A stretch of 64,000 nt of DNA from contig WFXF01000017.1 of assembly GCA_015490755.1 (NCBI GenBank), positions 1-64,000 of the forward strand. Reading direction: 5' to 3'. Both the position numbers and the translations under genes were made by a program. A model generated the notes under the pieces. The model was not told where the DNA came from. It worked only from the letters and a program-made list of their open reading frames with translations, and did no database searches. Below, one piece after another: positions 3,201 to 39,671 of the stretch. Position 1 is the first letter of the stretch, and every line of letters begins with the position of its first letter. Source of the DNA: Gammaproteobacteria bacterium (GTDB lineage: Bacteria > Pseudomonadota > Gammaproteobacteria > JAADGQ01).

Positions 3201-6200
3201 TTAATCAACCAACTCACGCCAGGAGTTACGACCTGAACGTTGACCACCTGTCACCTCAATTCCGTCCATAACGCCCGTTGTGTTATCCTCTTTTTGAGGT
3301 GCATTAGGTACCATATCGATATCATTCGGACCCGTAGTAGTCACAGATACTCTGTTAGGTTTACCAAACCCCGCGTGTATATGGTTACCACGACTTCCAA
3401 ATTTCCCAGCCGGAAATTGGCCCGTGGCCAGATCATATAAATAGTAGTAAGCCACGTCGAGGGAGCTACAAACACCTGTAGTAGCCGCCAAAGCCACCGG
3501 TAAAACTACTGCATCACCCACAATAGTGGCAGCATCAGTAATCCTTGCGCCCGAAGGCAATGCCGGAATACCCGATGTTTGATTTACATAATATCCGTTA
3601 CCATCAACCCCCGGAGTACCACTGGTATCAGCCGTATAGGTAGCACCATCTGCACTCCACACCCCTGCACTGCCATCACTGCTTGTCCAGGCATTGCGCC
3701 ATACGGGCACATCATCGGTATCACTATCACCATCATGATCAATATAATCTTCCCTGAAAATCGTCAAACGTGAAGTGGATTGTGCTCTCAGGTAACGTTT
3801 GTCGTCACTGCTCGTTGCAATGCCGAGATAAATCAGCTCAGATGAAGATAGTGAAGACGGAACAAAATTACCCAATTTGGCACCCGTTGCATTAAGATCA
3901 TCGCGCAAAGCAGTTTCTGTTTTTAATGCATCATCTGAATCTAATAGTTCGGCACGATAGACATTTCCGTTTTTATCACCCAGATAGATTTCATTTTTAT
4001 CTGAAATTAATGGTACCGAGGTAATTTTGAAAGATAATCCGGTAACTTCAAGTTTGTCATTTTTCTTGGCAACATTGCGAATGACTAATGTTGATACTCC
4101 AGCGCCATTATTCACTACATAAACCGCATAAACTTTATCATCATGGCGCCATAGCTGAGGCTCTCCCCCACCCGGAGAGGTATACCCCGCATACTCATCT
4201 TCCCAAATCAGCTTATGCAGTTTACCGCTATTATTGTTTTTTAGTTTCAATGAGTAATACATTGCGCCTGATTGCGCTGCACCGATGATATAAGTGCCAT
4301 AATTACTACCACTATTTTTTTTGGCGTCCACTGCATAAAAGCGGCCATTCATATAGTCACCAAACTGGAATGTACCAAAGTTTTTCATCTGTTTAACCAG
4401 GCTGCGTGGTGTCCAGCCCCAGAGCAAATCACCATCAGATTGCTTGAACGCATATAAAAAGCCATCGACCGAACTGGTCAACACAATAGGAGTACGATCT
4501 TTTCTGGATGTAACAAACGTACGATAATCTGAATCACGCCATAACGCAGGATCACCAGGCGCGTTCAAAGCCAAGGTATAATTGCCTCTTTCAATCGCCC
4601 CCAGCAGACTACCCGATTTTCGATTCATCAGATAAGCTTCACTGTCATAAGATGGATCAAAGGTATACTCCTTGATCGTATCGGCATCAGGCGTACCACT
4701 GATTTCAAAGGCAGCATCATCCAGATCTTTGAATTTTTCAAGCTCACCATCAGATTCTGTTGACCATAGCCTGCTTTTACGCTCAGCTACAGTCATCTCA
4801 TTGGCGGCATTCCAGCTTAAAGTTAAACTCTCATCACTCCCAACCTCATAAGCTCTGAGATTCCCCGCACTGGGCGATTGTTCACTCCCGGCCAGAAAAA
4901 CCTTGCTTCCTGCTTTGGTGGTAGTTGGAATTGCTGGCGCTACTTCACTCACCTCACCACTCAGCCCGATCTTGCTGAACGTTGTGGAAAGACCGTTTTT
5001 AAGCTCTTCCAGTGTTTGTGCAGAATACGCTTGGGTCGTACCACCGCTGGCTGCAATCAGGTTAGCCTGGTCAATATCACCACTGTTATTCGAGATGATC
5101 ACCACATGCACTCGAACACCAAGATCATTGTATAATTTGGCCGCCATATCTTCCGGTTTGGCATACACCTCAACACCATTAACCATTTCCCAGCGCGCAT
5201 CTTCTTTACCGTCATAGAACAGTAAAATATTATTGTCACGGCAACTGTCATATAGAGTATCTGCCGCTTTATAAGCACTGTAGTAGGCATAAGCACTTTG
5301 CAGTGATTGATAAATCGGTGATTGATGTTGCTGCCAGGGGTGTGAACTAACCGCAACACCTTTACCTCCAGCAATCAATTGGGTACTAGGGTTATAATCA
5401 TTCCCGTCAAGGCTCATCTGTTCATAAGCCATAAAACCCTTGACTTTCTCTCTTTGATCATCATAGCCCAAAGCTGGATCGGGTAGATCCAGGAAAACTC
5501 CCATATGGCGCGAGTTTCCAGGCAAATCTGCTCCCATTGTTTTAACATACCGATAAAAATCAGCAGGGTTGGCGGTACTTTCGTTTGGGCACAAATTCCG
5601 GCCATCGGCACAGGGATCAGCCACGCCCGAAGGGTATGAAGCGGTCATACACTCTGTTGTATCTGCATCTGTGCTTGTATTTGTATCACTACCTGTATCT
5701 GTACTTGTGCCACCACAAACACGTTCATAGCTTGTCTCGCCTGACCATCCGGTCATTGCTCCAATTTCAGCATCCGTCGTGCTGTCATAAAGCCCTTCCC
5801 AATAGTGAGGAACTTCAGAGAAGTAAGCTGTTGTTGTGCCAGACTCTCCTGCGAAAGGCCCCCATGCTCTCAATTGATCAGTCACACGTACGGTTTGATC
5901 CTTTAGCATATAGGCAGGATGAGAGGAGTCGATAAGACTATTCGCATCACAAGCTAAAGAGTAAGAGGTGCTTGACCGGTTTATTCCCCACCGGTCAACC
6001 AAAAAACCGCTACTGTCATCAAACAGATACAGCTCAGGTGTCGCACGATATACATCATAACCACTCCAACGACCTGGATAAGCGTGGTTATAAGGCCGAT
6101 TGGCATTATAAAGAGCCTGAAATATATTTCCCTGTGAGTTATACCATGTTCTACATAGATAATGCTCAATCATCGGATCACCGGCAGCAACTTCAGCAGC

Positions 6201-25603: not shown

Positions 25604-26047
25604 TTATGAACACACCTGCATACGCAAACGCACACGTAATTTTCGATGTGATTCAGCAGTCACACTATCGATAAAAATAATAGCAACCCGCCTCTCTTTT
25701 GCAGCTGTTTTAAAGCGCAGAACGACTAAGCCCGCATGCAGATAACTTTGTCCCAATAGCACCCCTTCGACACTATCTCCACAACGATCAAAAATTTTCC
25801 ACTGTTGCCCTTCCAGCCAAACCAGACGAACTATCGACTTTTTAGTATTCATTCGAATATACAGATTAATCTGCAAATACAAATTCAAAACAATCAACAA
25901 AATGAATAGGATAGATAACCAACCAGAAACAGGAACAATCAATAAAACCAAAATGGCTCCTCCATGCATAAAGCATAAAATCACCAGAAATATACGAGAA
26001 GCTTTTAAGTCAAGGCACAGCGGAGTTGCGTATTTGGGTAATGACAT
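25604..26047 (-). CDS. ygfX: YgfX (CptA) family membrane protein
   Basis: This 147-aa protein has two closely spaced membrane spans (about residues 17-58), followed by a cytoplasmic beta-rich domain (WLEGQQWKIFDRCGDSVEGV, RRVAIIFIDSVTAESHRKLR). It is the YgfX architecture, encoded with overlap after sdhE as in E. coli cptB-cptA. In E. coli YgfX has been reported as a toxin acting on cytoskeletal proteins; that role is debated, and an involvement with SdhE is equally possible. Confidence 0.8.
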   Translation of the reverse strand: MSLPKYATPLCLDLKASRIFLVILCFMHGGAILVLLIVPVSGWLSILFILLIVLNLYLQINLYIRMNTKKSIVRLVWLEGQQWKIFDRCGDSVEGVLLGQSYLHAGLVVLRFKTAAKERRVAIIFIDSVTAESHRKLRVRLRMQVCS

Positions 26048-36041: not shown

Positions 36042-36353
36042 TTAATTCTCATCGTCGGTCTCCTTTTCTCCAATCCAGCCCGCCTCTTTGGCGCGAACAA
36101 TCGCAGCAGCGTGGATCCGATCATGGCGCTCACGCAGATCCGCTGGCAAACTGCTGACCATGCAGCCGTACTTATCCCACTCGTCATTAACCTTATTCAA
36201 CAGGGTATCGATACGTCCAAGGTTCCACCCTTCACAAGTTTCTGTTTCAGGAAGAACCCCAAAAACCCAAGCATCACGAACCAACTTTCCAATAGTGGTC
36301 ATACCACCATTTACATCTTTATCAATTCCCACATAGGTGTCTGGTCTTGTCAT
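36042..36353 (-). CDS. Conserved-looking hypothetical protein, 103 aa
   Basis: This soluble protein contains TYVGIDKDVNGGMTTIGKLV, DAWVFGVLPETETCEGWNLG and RHDRIHAAAIVRAKEAGWIG. The density of Trp, Gly and charged residues and a strong codon pattern indicate a real gene. No signal peptide, membrane span or known domain is seen. It lies alone between the LysR remnant and the ParA locus, in the same direction as both the leuCD and ParA genes. I do not recognise its function. Confidence 0.65.
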   Translation of the reverse strand: MTRPDTYVGIDKDVNGGMTTIGKLVRDAWVFGVLPETETCEGWNLGRIDTLLNKVNDEWDKYGCMVSSLPADLRERHDRIHAAAIVRAKEAGWIGEKETDDEN

Positions 36354-36488: not shown

Positions 36489-36551
36489 CTAGGAGCCTGT
36501 CCGAGAATGAAAAGTCTACTGCGGAAAATCCATTCTCGGACAGCCTCCTAG
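36489..36551. repeat. 63-bp inverted repeat at the 3' end of the ParA operon
   Basis: Arms CTAGGAGCCTGTCCGAGAATG and its near-complement (one base insertion in each) flank a 20-base centre. The first base triplet of the right arm provides the TAG stop of the small gene at 36548-36727. It could be a small dispersed hairpin element that also caps the transcript's 3' end; no T-run follows. Confidence 0.75.
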
Positions 36552-36727
36552 TCTGGCCAAACACGTCTTGGAAAAAATTCTGGCGATACTGCCTGCACCT
36601 TAGTCGCCACATCCGCTGAGACTGAAGGAGCTTTAACCGCTCTGGTAACTGGCACAACGTCCTCTGGCTGCTTTGATTTAGCCTTACGCACACTGCTTGC
36701 TAATTTAGAACCAACTTTTTTTTTCAT
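36548..36727 (-). CDS. Small ParA-partner protein ending in RRVWPD (59 aa)
   Basis: The frame from ATG at 36727 to TAG at 36548 codes for MKKKVGSKLASSVRKAKSK, then a Val/Ala/Pro-rich middle, and ends SPEFFPRRVWPD. AGGAG lies 11 bases upstream and the ATG overlaps the ParA stop (ATGA), so the two are co-translated. A basic, disordered, short protein with a C-terminal Trp motif next to a ParA ATPase resembles the adaptor partners (McdB-like) that stimulate ParA-type cargo-positioning ATPases. This is analogy from layout and composition, not shown homology. Confidence 0.65.
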   Translation of the reverse strand: MKKKVGSKLASSVRKAKSKQPEDVVPVTRAVKAPSVSADVATKVQAVSPEFFPRRVWPD

Positions 36728-37362
36728 GATTTCAATATCTCCTCTATGAGAGCATCAACTTCCTGCGAGGCGGGCTCACCGCGTTTCCCCATGCAGTATA
36801 CACTCGATCCTTCTAAAGCTGAATTTCGGTAGACGGCACGCCGCCGCAGACAACTATCCAACGCAGGAATATCAAACTCTTCTAACGCTTGGCGCATCCC
36901 TCTGGATATTGCACTGCGTGGCTCTAATTGATTAACCAAAATATAAGGTTGCAACTCATCATTGTAAATCTTCACCTGCTCAATAGCCTCTGCAAGGCGA
37001 ACACTGGCCCACAGGTCTACGGGAGAAGGCAAAATTGGAATAAGCACTTTATCAGATACAGTCATTGCCTTCTGTGCCACTCCTGTTTCAAGGGTCGGCG
37101 GACAGTCAACCACCAAATACTGATAATCTTCACCTATTCGTTTAATCTCTCTTGGTAAATTACTTGTAATGGAGATAACCGATACAGGAAAAGGGTTTTC
37201 ATCAGGCGATAAACCTGCCCACTGACCGGCTGACCCTTGTGGATCAGCATCAATGATAAGAGTACGCCCTCGCTTTGAAAGCCCCACGGCAAGATTCATA
37301 CTCAATGTGGTTTTACCCGTACCACCTTTCTGATTCGCCACCGAAAAAACCTGAGACAACAT
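36724..37362 (-). CDS. ParA/McdA-like positioning ATPase
   Basis: This 212-aa ParA-superfamily ATPase has a deviant Walker A, VANQKGGTGKTTLSMNLAVG, a switch I-type DADPQGSAGQWAG and Walker B LVVDCPP. There is no N-terminal DNA-binding domain, so it belongs to the short ParA/MinD-like group that positions cargo on the nucleoid or membrane, rather than plasmid ParA with HTH. No ParB or parS is nearby. Its partner is probably the overlapping 59-codon gene. The SulP transporter gene 41 bases upstream on the same strand may share its transcript. Confidence 0.85.
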   Translation of the reverse strand: MLSQVFSVANQKGGTGKTTLSMNLAVGLSKRGRTLIIDADPQGSAGQWAGLSPDENPFPVSVISITSNLPREIKRIGEDYQYLVVDCPPTLETGVAQKAMTVSDKVLIPILPSPVDLWASVRLAEAIEQVKIYNDELQPYILVNQLEPRSAISRGMRQALEEFDIPALDSCLRRRAVYRNSALEGSSVYCMGKRGEPASQEVDALIEEILKS

Positions 37363-37403
37363 TTATACGCACCCTTATTTAACTAAACAAAGCTCTTTGT
37401 CGC

Positions 37404-39671
37404 CTAACCGTTATTTGGCTGGTTATTACATGAACTATTAAATGTTTCAGTCAAGACAAACAATAATGAAATTTCATCTGCATTGGCTAATGACTGATCT
37501 TTTCTAAAAGCAAGCATAACACCATTACGCACCTCAAGATAACAGTCATCATATTTCGCCATAAAATCCATTAGCGCCGGTGAAATACAAGAAAGTGGAT
37601 CGGTTCCATCTTTTGCAAAAAGGCGGTACTTTTCTGCAAATACATTCCTGTAAGGCAACTCAACTTCTTCATAATCGACCAGATACCGCTCCAGATAGTA
37701 GCCAGGCGTGATTACCATATCTGGCACATCAAGGTTTGAATCCGCGATATAGCTCGAGGTAATAATCGTGTGCCAATGTTTAGAATAGTAATCAGGTGCA
37801 GAGGTATGACTGTAATCATACAAACGCACATTTGCTCCATGGTACTCACCAAACATTGTATTACATGCTTCTTTATCAGCACCGCGACGCAAATATACGA
37901 AGCCTTCAGAGTTCAGGATACTAACCGCTTCTGCATTAAAGTCCAATTTATAATGCTGTGATAAAAGCTCTATTTGTACTTCTCTATCACTACGATGAAC
38001 TTGCTCTTTAGCCAAGATAGTATCTTGCATACGAGCAGCCAAAGAATGCTTGGTAAACTGGATAAAGTTTTCAACACCAATTAGTTCAAAAGCACGCCCA
38101 TCACGTACACATTCCTCCTGAAATTGTTGTAAATACTCCATCGCAGTATGATCAATAATACGCCCGGACTCAGTAACAATCAGCGTCACACCCTCTTTAT
38201 CTGGCAAGCTTGAAAGCAATTTATCCAGCGGCAACAAATTAAAGCAAACCAGTGACGAAATGGTTATTTCATAATGCCTAATGCCATTTCGCTCCAGCTC
38301 TTTTACCTTAATTACAGGTGAAGTAAATAAGCTCTTCAGGTTACCCCATAGCAGACAACACGAACGCTGCATACTCAAGCGGCCCGACAATACATAACGA
38401 AATGATGGTGTCAATAAATACAACAGCATCAATACCTCCGCCGCAACCCCGATGAGAATACCCGATAAAAGGTCAGTACCAAGAATCGCAACAACCGTAA
38501 TCACAAAAATAATCAGTTGGTCACGACCAACCTCATAAGTTTTCGTGAATACTTTATATTCACACAGTTTCCAACCAACATAGATCAAAATCGATGCAAT
38601 TGCAGCCAGCGGCACCATCGCAATCACATCAGCTGCCACAAACAAGAATATCAGTAAGAATATGGCGTTATAAAAATTCGCCCATAAAGTACGACCACCA
38701 GCATCGATATTGGTACGACTTTTAATTCCGCCAGGAATAATGGTTAAACCCCCAAAGATACTAGACAGTGAGTTAGATATACCCATTGCACGCAGGGTAA
38801 CATTGGGATCAGACTTACGCTGGAACGGATCAATTTTATCCACAGCCTTAATCGTTGCCAGCGATTCAACACCATCGATCAACGTTAATGTAATCACCAC
38901 AATCAAAATACCCCACCATAATTCAGGCCGGGTAAAAACTTCCCCAAAAGCCGGCATTGTAATACCACCTTCCAAAATACTATCCGGCATCGTAATCAAA
39001 TGCTTCGCTTCAAGCCCAAAAAAGTAGGCCAGAAAGACACCAAGTACGGTCACAAATAATGGCGGCGGTACTTTACGCATCCACATATGTTTTGACTTGC
39101 TCAGATAAAAAATCAAAAAGAGGCTAAGTGTGCCAATAAACAGTACACTCCACTCAATCTGTAGAAAGGCTTCTGGCAGCTTAGCAATAGATCCGAGCAT
39201 AGTTTCAGAAGCCGGCATAATCGCTCCCATCAACGCGGGAATCTGTTTGATAATGATAATGAGTCCAATGGCCGCGAGCATCGCCTCGACCACCGTCACC
39301 GGTAGAAATATTGCATACCTTCCCGCCTTGAAAAAGGCGAGCAGTATCTGAAGCAGTCCTGTGAGGCAAATGGCCACCAATAACAATGGGTAACCTTCAG
39401 CAAGATCTCCTCCCCCTAGCATCAACATGCCAGCTAATAGTGCAGGTGCAAGACCAGCGGCTGGACCACTGATAGTGACATAGGCACCACCCAGAAAAGG
39501 AAAGATGAGACCTGCAATAATGGCAGAGATCACCCCTGTAACCGGTGGTGCACCAGAAGCAATAGCAATTCCGAGTGAAAGCGGCAATGAGACAAGCGCA
39601 ACTTGCATCCCCGCCAACAAGTCAAAGCGCCAGTGTTTTAAACCCTTAATACCATTTTGCGGGGCTTCCAT
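37404..39671 (-). CDS. SulP-family anion transporter with STAS and extra C-terminal domain
   Basis: This 755-aa protein has the SulP/SLC26 membrane core of about 14 spans (residues 15-440; GLIFPFLGGAYVTISGPAAG is the signature), followed by a STAS domain (about 460-565). Substrates of this family include sulfate, bicarbonate and other anions. From about 590 to 740 there is an additional soluble domain, including DVPDMVITPGYYLERYL and CYLEVRNGVMLAF, not usual for SulP proteins. Being upstream of a ParA/McdB-like pair, and given similar transporters beside carboxysome loci in sulfur oxidisers, bicarbonate is a candidate, but nothing in the sequence fixes the substrate. Confidence 0.85.
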   Translation of the reverse strand: MEAPQNGIKGLKHWRFDLLAGMQVALVSLPLSLGIAIASGAPPVTGVISAIIAGLIFPFLGGAYVTISGPAAGLAPALLAGMLMLGGGDLAEGYPLLLVAICLTGLLQILLAFFKAGRYAIFLPVTVVEAMLAAIGLIIIIKQIPALMGAIMPASETMLGSIAKLPEAFLQIEWSVLFIGTLSLFLIFYLSKSKHMWMRKVPPPLFVTVLGVFLAYFFGLEAKHLITMPDSILEGGITMPAFGEVFTRPELWWGILIVVITLTLIDGVESLATIKAVDKIDPFQRKSDPNVTLRAMGISNSLSSIFGGLTIIPGGIKSRTNIDAGGRTLWANFYNAIFLLIFLFVAADVIAMVPLAAIASILIYVGWKLCEYKVFTKTYEVGRDQLIIFVITVVAILGTDLLSGILIGVAAEVLMLLYLLTPSFRYVLSGRLSMQRSCCLLWGNLKSLFTSPVIKVKELERNGIRHYEITISSLVCFNLLPLDKLLSSLPDKEGVTLIVTESGRIIDHTAMEYLQQFQEECVRDGRAFELIGVENFIQFTKHSLAARMQDTILAKEQVHRSDREVQIELLSQHYKLDFNAEAVSILNSEGFVYLRRGADKEACNTMFGEYHGANVRLYDYSHTSAPDYYSKHWHTIITSSYIADSNLDVPDMVITPGYYLERYLVDYEEVELPYRNVFAEKYRLFAKDGTDPLSCISPALMDFMAKYDDCYLEVRNGVMLAFRKDQSLANADEISLLFVLTETFNSSCNNQPNNG

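Follow-up and report, generated by a model that had tools for sequence, protein, structure and literature searches.

The closest described relatives of the locus analyzed here are, on the one hand, the systems that position alpha-carboxysomes and, on the other, certain transporters of the SulP family. In the alpha-McdAB type 2 arrangement, as reviewed in PMC8262871, alpha-mcdAB is distant from the cso genes and a second, orphan mcdB without a charged N terminus stands in the cso operon. The C terminus of alpha-McdB follows the consensus R(V/I)WPD, in which WPD is invariant and is required for carboxysome association (PMC11321042). With respect to transport, E. coli lacking carbonic anhydrase was rescued by a SulP whose gene adjoins the carboxysome locus of Thiomicrospira pelophila, and its intracellular DIC increased (PMC12628692). 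BicA is a cyanobacterial bicarbonate transporter of the SulP family.

The window, a 64,000-nucleotide stretch of DNA from a Gammaproteobacteria bacterium, carries genes related to both. All three ORFs of the original prediction were found on the minus strand where it had placed them, in the order of a SulP-family transporter of 755 aa (37404..39671), a ParA-family ATPase of 212 aa (36724..37362) and a small protein of 59 aa (36548..36727). SulP and ParA are separated by 41 bp, and the ParA stop and mcdB start overlap by 4 bp (ATGA, 36724-36727), so that the three genes form an apparent operon and may be co-transcribed; scans for promoters and terminators returned nothing beyond chance. Based on translations, the trio is flanked by leuC, leuD and cysteine synthase on one side, each a housekeeping gene, and by ychF, pth, L25 and prs on the other (Pth also by Pfam), and it lies at least 36 kb from both ends of its own 88-kb contig. 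Elsewhere in the window, a small protein (25604-26047, minus strand) matches Pfam Cpta_toxin (PF07254; E 6e-14). In Halothiobacillus neapolitanus, mcdAB sits with the cso locus, unlike the window pair. The 59-aa window protein resembles H. neapolitanus McdB (characterized in PMC11321042 and PMC12204374) in its small size, putatively McdA-binding N-terminal segment and C-terminal WPD. As in alpha-McdAB type 2 (PMC8262871), the ParA has a deviant Walker A motif, a small basic partner ending in R(V/I)WPD lies directly 3', and an orphan second McdB is found near the cso genes. In contrast to that arrangement, the same apparent operon includes a SulP gene immediately upstream of the pair, the window mcdB adjoins a copy of a mobile element, and this genome's orphan McdB has stayed basic despite lacking a KLxxSVR-like segment.

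The small ORF is kept beside ParA. A WPD-ended small ORF lies directly 3' of ParA in each of the 12 further genomes in the class sample whose ParA match reached E <= 1e-30, as well as for 77 of the 80 best named-genome homologues, most of which share the same -4 overlap and mostly lie in carboxysome loci; in the remaining 3, the ORF was slightly further downstream, or the locus was interrupted by a contig end or an ambiguous-base break (1 each). The conservation of this frame next to ParA, on which the original prediction depended, is thus borne out. Its view that the ORF escapes normal gene calling was only partly right, since its counterpart on a Nitrobacter hamburgensis plasmid does carry an annotation, that of a hypothetical protein. 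Among 79 type 1 proteins, the last five residues were RVWPD in 55 and RIWPD in 16. Across the 2.63-Mb genome, the pattern R(V/I)WPD followed by a stop has just two occurrences, each within an ORF of this kind, and the reversed pattern, used as a control, has none. As expected of alpha-McdB type 1, the window protein lies immediately 3' of alpha-mcdA, has a charged (basic) N terminus (MKKKVGSKLASSVRKAKSK) and ends in RRVWPD, with the invariant tryptophan of R(V/I)WPD. Both functional segments of McdB are therefore kept, namely the tail and the basic N-terminal segment GSKLASSVRKAK, which is putatively McdA-binding. An N-terminal KLxx[SGTNA][VIML][RKSN] motif was present in 74/79 type 1 proteins vs 0/10 orphans. 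By composition alone, the window protein is consistent with intrinsic disorder.

The ATPase scored 201.8 bits against NCBIfam NF041546 (ParA_partition; cut-off 180). The deviant Walker A motif expected of alpha-McdA, KGGTGKTT with its signature lysine, occupies residues 12-19 and is invariant or near-invariant in two alignments. A second McdA was not found in the genome, where the next-best ParA reached E 7e-14. In the named-genome loci, most of the ParA homologues are placed just after csoS1 in cso operons. Taken together, the match of the RRVWPD tail to the alpha-McdB consensus, the retention of both McdB segments and the position of ParA homologues in cso operons identify the pair as alpha-McdAB, in agreement with the suggestion that ParA and the small protein form a McdAB-type positioning pair.

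The genome from which the window derives spans 2.63 Mb in 94 contigs and is 99.7% complete. A search for cso genes, which had been proposed as a check, found an alpha-carboxysome operon, cbbL-cbbS-csoS2-csoSCA-csoS4A-csoS4B-csoS1, at the end of contig C77; the genome thus has the alpha-carboxysome genes expected alongside alpha-McdA (CsoS2, CsoS1, CsoSCA, CsoS4AB and CbbLS). The claim that the trio stands apart from carboxysome genes therefore holds within the window and fails for the genome. A further contig, C58, encodes an orphan McdB (5690-5842), an SbtA-like transporter, a PII-like protein, a CbbR-like regulator and a CsoS1D-like BMC protein. The orphan McdB is 49-50 aa long, ends in SRRVWPD and has no neighbouring mcdA. 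Like alpha-McdB type 2, it is a second mcdB in the cso region to which mcdA is not adjacent, and the same order recurs in the closest relative of the trio (L165). Orphan McdBs near cso were found in ten genomes, this one included. The first 20 residues of the C58 orphan carry a net charge of +5 and lack the KLxxSVR-like motif, and net charge alone fails to split type 1 McdBs from orphans; because the C58 protein is itself basic, the published description of orphans as lacking a charged N terminus applies to it only in the sense of motif loss. The two-McdB layout is thus already known as type 2, and loss of the N-terminal motif describes the orphans more sharply. In a genome of the same genus (G001, 97% complete), the cso locus on contig C4 (L132, L133) is divergent and includes an orphan McdB of 114 aa, and no alpha-McdA was detected; McdB type 2 may thus occur in a genome without McdA.

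The closest relative of the trio was found in the MAG S140_27 (G056), whose McdA, encoded adjacent to cso, is 93% identical to that of the window and whose SulP is 88% identical. On a single 16-kb contig of this MAG (G056:C27, L165), mcdB-mcdA-SulP is divergent from cbbLS-csoS2-csoSCA-csoS4-csoS1-csoS1, and the contig continues past csoS1-csoS1 with orphan mcdB-sbtA-PII-cbbR-csoS1D. From this one-contig layout, C77 and C58 appear to be neighbouring parts of a single locus, and the window trio appears to be the SulP-mcdA-mcdB unit of G056 at another place. The G056 trio lies upstream of and divergent from cbbL/cso, and carboxysome positioning from a remote location is accordingly the most likely role of the window trio. 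We conclude that alpha-McdAB and SulP very probably constitute an accessory operon of the alpha-carboxysome CO2-concentrating mechanism (CCM), at least 36 kb from the cso genes. That the trio and the cso genes are on different contigs is a point against this explanation. The original prediction had offered carboxysome positioning from a distance as one of two readings, and it is the one favored by the cso operon in this genome and the trio beside cso in the closest relative. Based on characterized homologues, ATP-bound McdA dimers would coat the nucleoid, and McdB would bind the carboxysome shell via its C-terminal RVWPD tail and McdA via its basic N-terminal segment. McdB would then stimulate the McdA ATPase and deplete McdA locally, which would leave carboxysomes spaced along the nucleoid and evenly inherited. 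The C58 orphan, as a type 2 alpha-McdB without the KLxxSVR-like segment, would bind carboxysomes and not McdA, and SulP would bring in bicarbonate for the carboxysome.

The second reading was that the pair positions another cargo, such as a different compartment, SulP itself or a membrane cluster. The physical separation of the trio from cso, the presence of another WPD protein in the cso cluster and the location of SulP directly upstream of the pair are compatible with this idea, but RVWPD is the published alpha-carboxysome adaptor motif, the trio adjoins cso in the closest relative, and nothing in the data requires another cargo. Moreover, the only BMC-domain matches in the genome are CsoS1 on C77 and CsoS1D on C58, and another BMC cargo was rejected on this basis. 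Finally, positioning of carboxysomes would still depend on the window McdB, as the McdA-binding-like segment is absent from the orphan. We consider another cargo highly unlikely.

Comparison with related genomes bears on the origin of the accessory operon. The housekeeping proteins YchF and Prs are 92-93% identical to those of the same-genus genome G001 and only 73-75% identical to those of G056, whereas McdA, SulP, SbtA, PII, CbbR and CsoS1D are 88-93% identical to their G056 counterparts. At the nucleotide level, identity to G056 is 78.9% over the trio vs 68-70% over ychF-pth-prs. A genome listed under another family, G082, is apparently the same genome as G056, as contig number and coordinates agree. 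The high identity of the trio and other CCM genes to G056, together with the low identity of the housekeeping genes, points to probable horizontal transfer of CCM modules; as CsoS2 and CsoSCA reach just 47% and 60% identity with their G056 counterparts, the core would be mosaic. The cso locus of G001 is a different one (CsoS2 31%, CsoSCA 42% and SbtA 60% identical). Neither alpha-McdA (E <= 1e-30) nor this SulP was found in G001, despite its cso operon and orphan McdB, indicating that the trio is not obligatory. An empty trio site was not found in this sister species, in which synteny with the window extends only from ychF outward. An apparent in-frame TAG in the G056 SulP proved to be merely its stop codon near the end.

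A trace of a mobile element adjoins the trio. A 63-bp inverted repeat (36489..36551) abuts mcdB, whose stop codon comes from the outer CTAG of the repeat. This repeat is a shortened version of a MITE-like element of roughly 154 bp, the termini of which number about 50 across the genome; a full-length copy is found immediately before the orphan mcdB (C58, about 5873-6036; L024). Termini of this element are often at contig ends. The position of the short copy at the mcdB stop, the apparent transfer of the trio and the lack of mcdA in the sister species would all be expected if the trio were a decaying remnant of a transferred carboxysome locus, disused since the orphan McdB serves. However, the three ORFs are intact, McdA retains its Walker A motif and conserved residues, and McdB retains both functional segments and the ATGA coupling, which leaves decay with a very slim chance. 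The best solved-structure matches of the window McdA (the plasmid proteins ParF and ParA) and its NCBIfam name (ParA family partition ATPase) bring to mind ParA partition of the plasmid or chromosomal type, in which the partner binds DNA. This reading was rejected as having negligible probability on the basis of partner motif and context: the small protein matches no family of DNA-binding proteins and has the McdB motif at its end, close homologues are found in cso operons, and housekeeping genes (leuCD, ychF and pth) flank the trio.

Within the accessory operon, the SulP gene belongs with the ParA pair, as originally proposed. Its orthologues occur within carboxysome loci or close to them, and SulP is frequently in the vicinity of ParA rather than always elsewhere, although direct SulP-mcdA adjacency was observed in two genomes only, that of the window (G000) and the G056 lineage. 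The transport domain matches Pfam PF00916 (E 9.4e-50), and the best solved-structure match is 6ki1 (E 1e-30), which we take to be BicA. The likeness to BicA thus lies in the SulP transport domain and in this structure match; unlike BicA, the window SulP falls far under the cut-off of the BicA equivalog NF050096 (147.8 bits vs 880) and has an extra C-terminal domain. Its likeness to SulP-CS of T. pelophila, for which a DIC rise was shown (PMC12628692), is one of family and context, both being SulP transporters linked to carboxysome loci; the extra domain, with its TtfA-like fold, sets the window protein apart. The rescue and DIC rise obtained with the T. pelophila protein make bicarbonate uptake the best guess for the window SulP, which by this analogy most likely imports bicarbonate for the carboxysome.

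The added domain spans residues about 535-755 (37407..38069, minus strand). It failed to match Pfam or NCBIfam even at loose thresholds, and a profile search of solved structures returned nothing below E 0.05. A predicted model (mean pLDDT 82.7) retrieved mycobacterial TtfA in a fold search (6t84; E 3.5e-5, TM 0.57/0.69). TtfA was not adopted as a named function, since the likeness gives none. SulP-length matches containing the domain were found in 13/274 genomes of the class (a 14th weak match, in a 251-aa frame, is omitted from the count), and 12 of the 13 were positive for CsoS2, which occurs in 56/274 (Fisher p 2e-8, uncorrected for relatedness). Several loci have cso or sbtA genes in the neighbourhood of SulPs sharing the domain, and in 6 of the 12 CsoS2-positive genomes SulP and CsoS2 are on one contig, roughly 10 kb apart or less. 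We regard as improbable the idea that this extra cytosolic domain serves as a carboxysome-linked module, either in contact with the carboxysome or the McdAB machinery or as a sensor of inorganic carbon; if true, bicarbonate uptake and carboxysome positioning would be coupled physically or regulatorily.

A 103-aa protein encoded 3' of mcdB (36042-36353, minus strand) matched no family in Pfam. Homologues with 42-55% identity were found in 11 fetched loci, all of them fetched as carboxysome loci; as most of the searched loci were fetched for mcdA, this association is biased by sampling. A plasmid search, which forms the independent part, recovered a homologue only on Nitrobacter hamburgensis plasmid 1. 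This plasmid also bears a cso operon and mcdA, and there the homologue adjoins genes for DUF2309 and a proton-conducting transporter, which we take to be two subunits of a DIC-accumulating complex. The recurrence of this protein in carboxysome or DIC-transport loci is consistent with it being a possible fourth member of the trio's gene group.

The locus had been put forward as a candidate new positioning system. It is instead an established system, and its layout, though less common, has been described before. The new points are modest, and comprise a SulP-mcdAB operon across families (probably by transfer), the extra domain of SulP and a recurring 103-aa neighbour. Our findings place the pair firmly within a known organelle-positioning system and provide a clean added example of the two-McdB arrangement. 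They likewise present two unnamed carboxysome-tracking parts, the SulP C-terminal domain and the 103-aa protein, as simple targets for asking how carboxysomes of chemoautotrophs are connected with the uptake of inorganic carbon.
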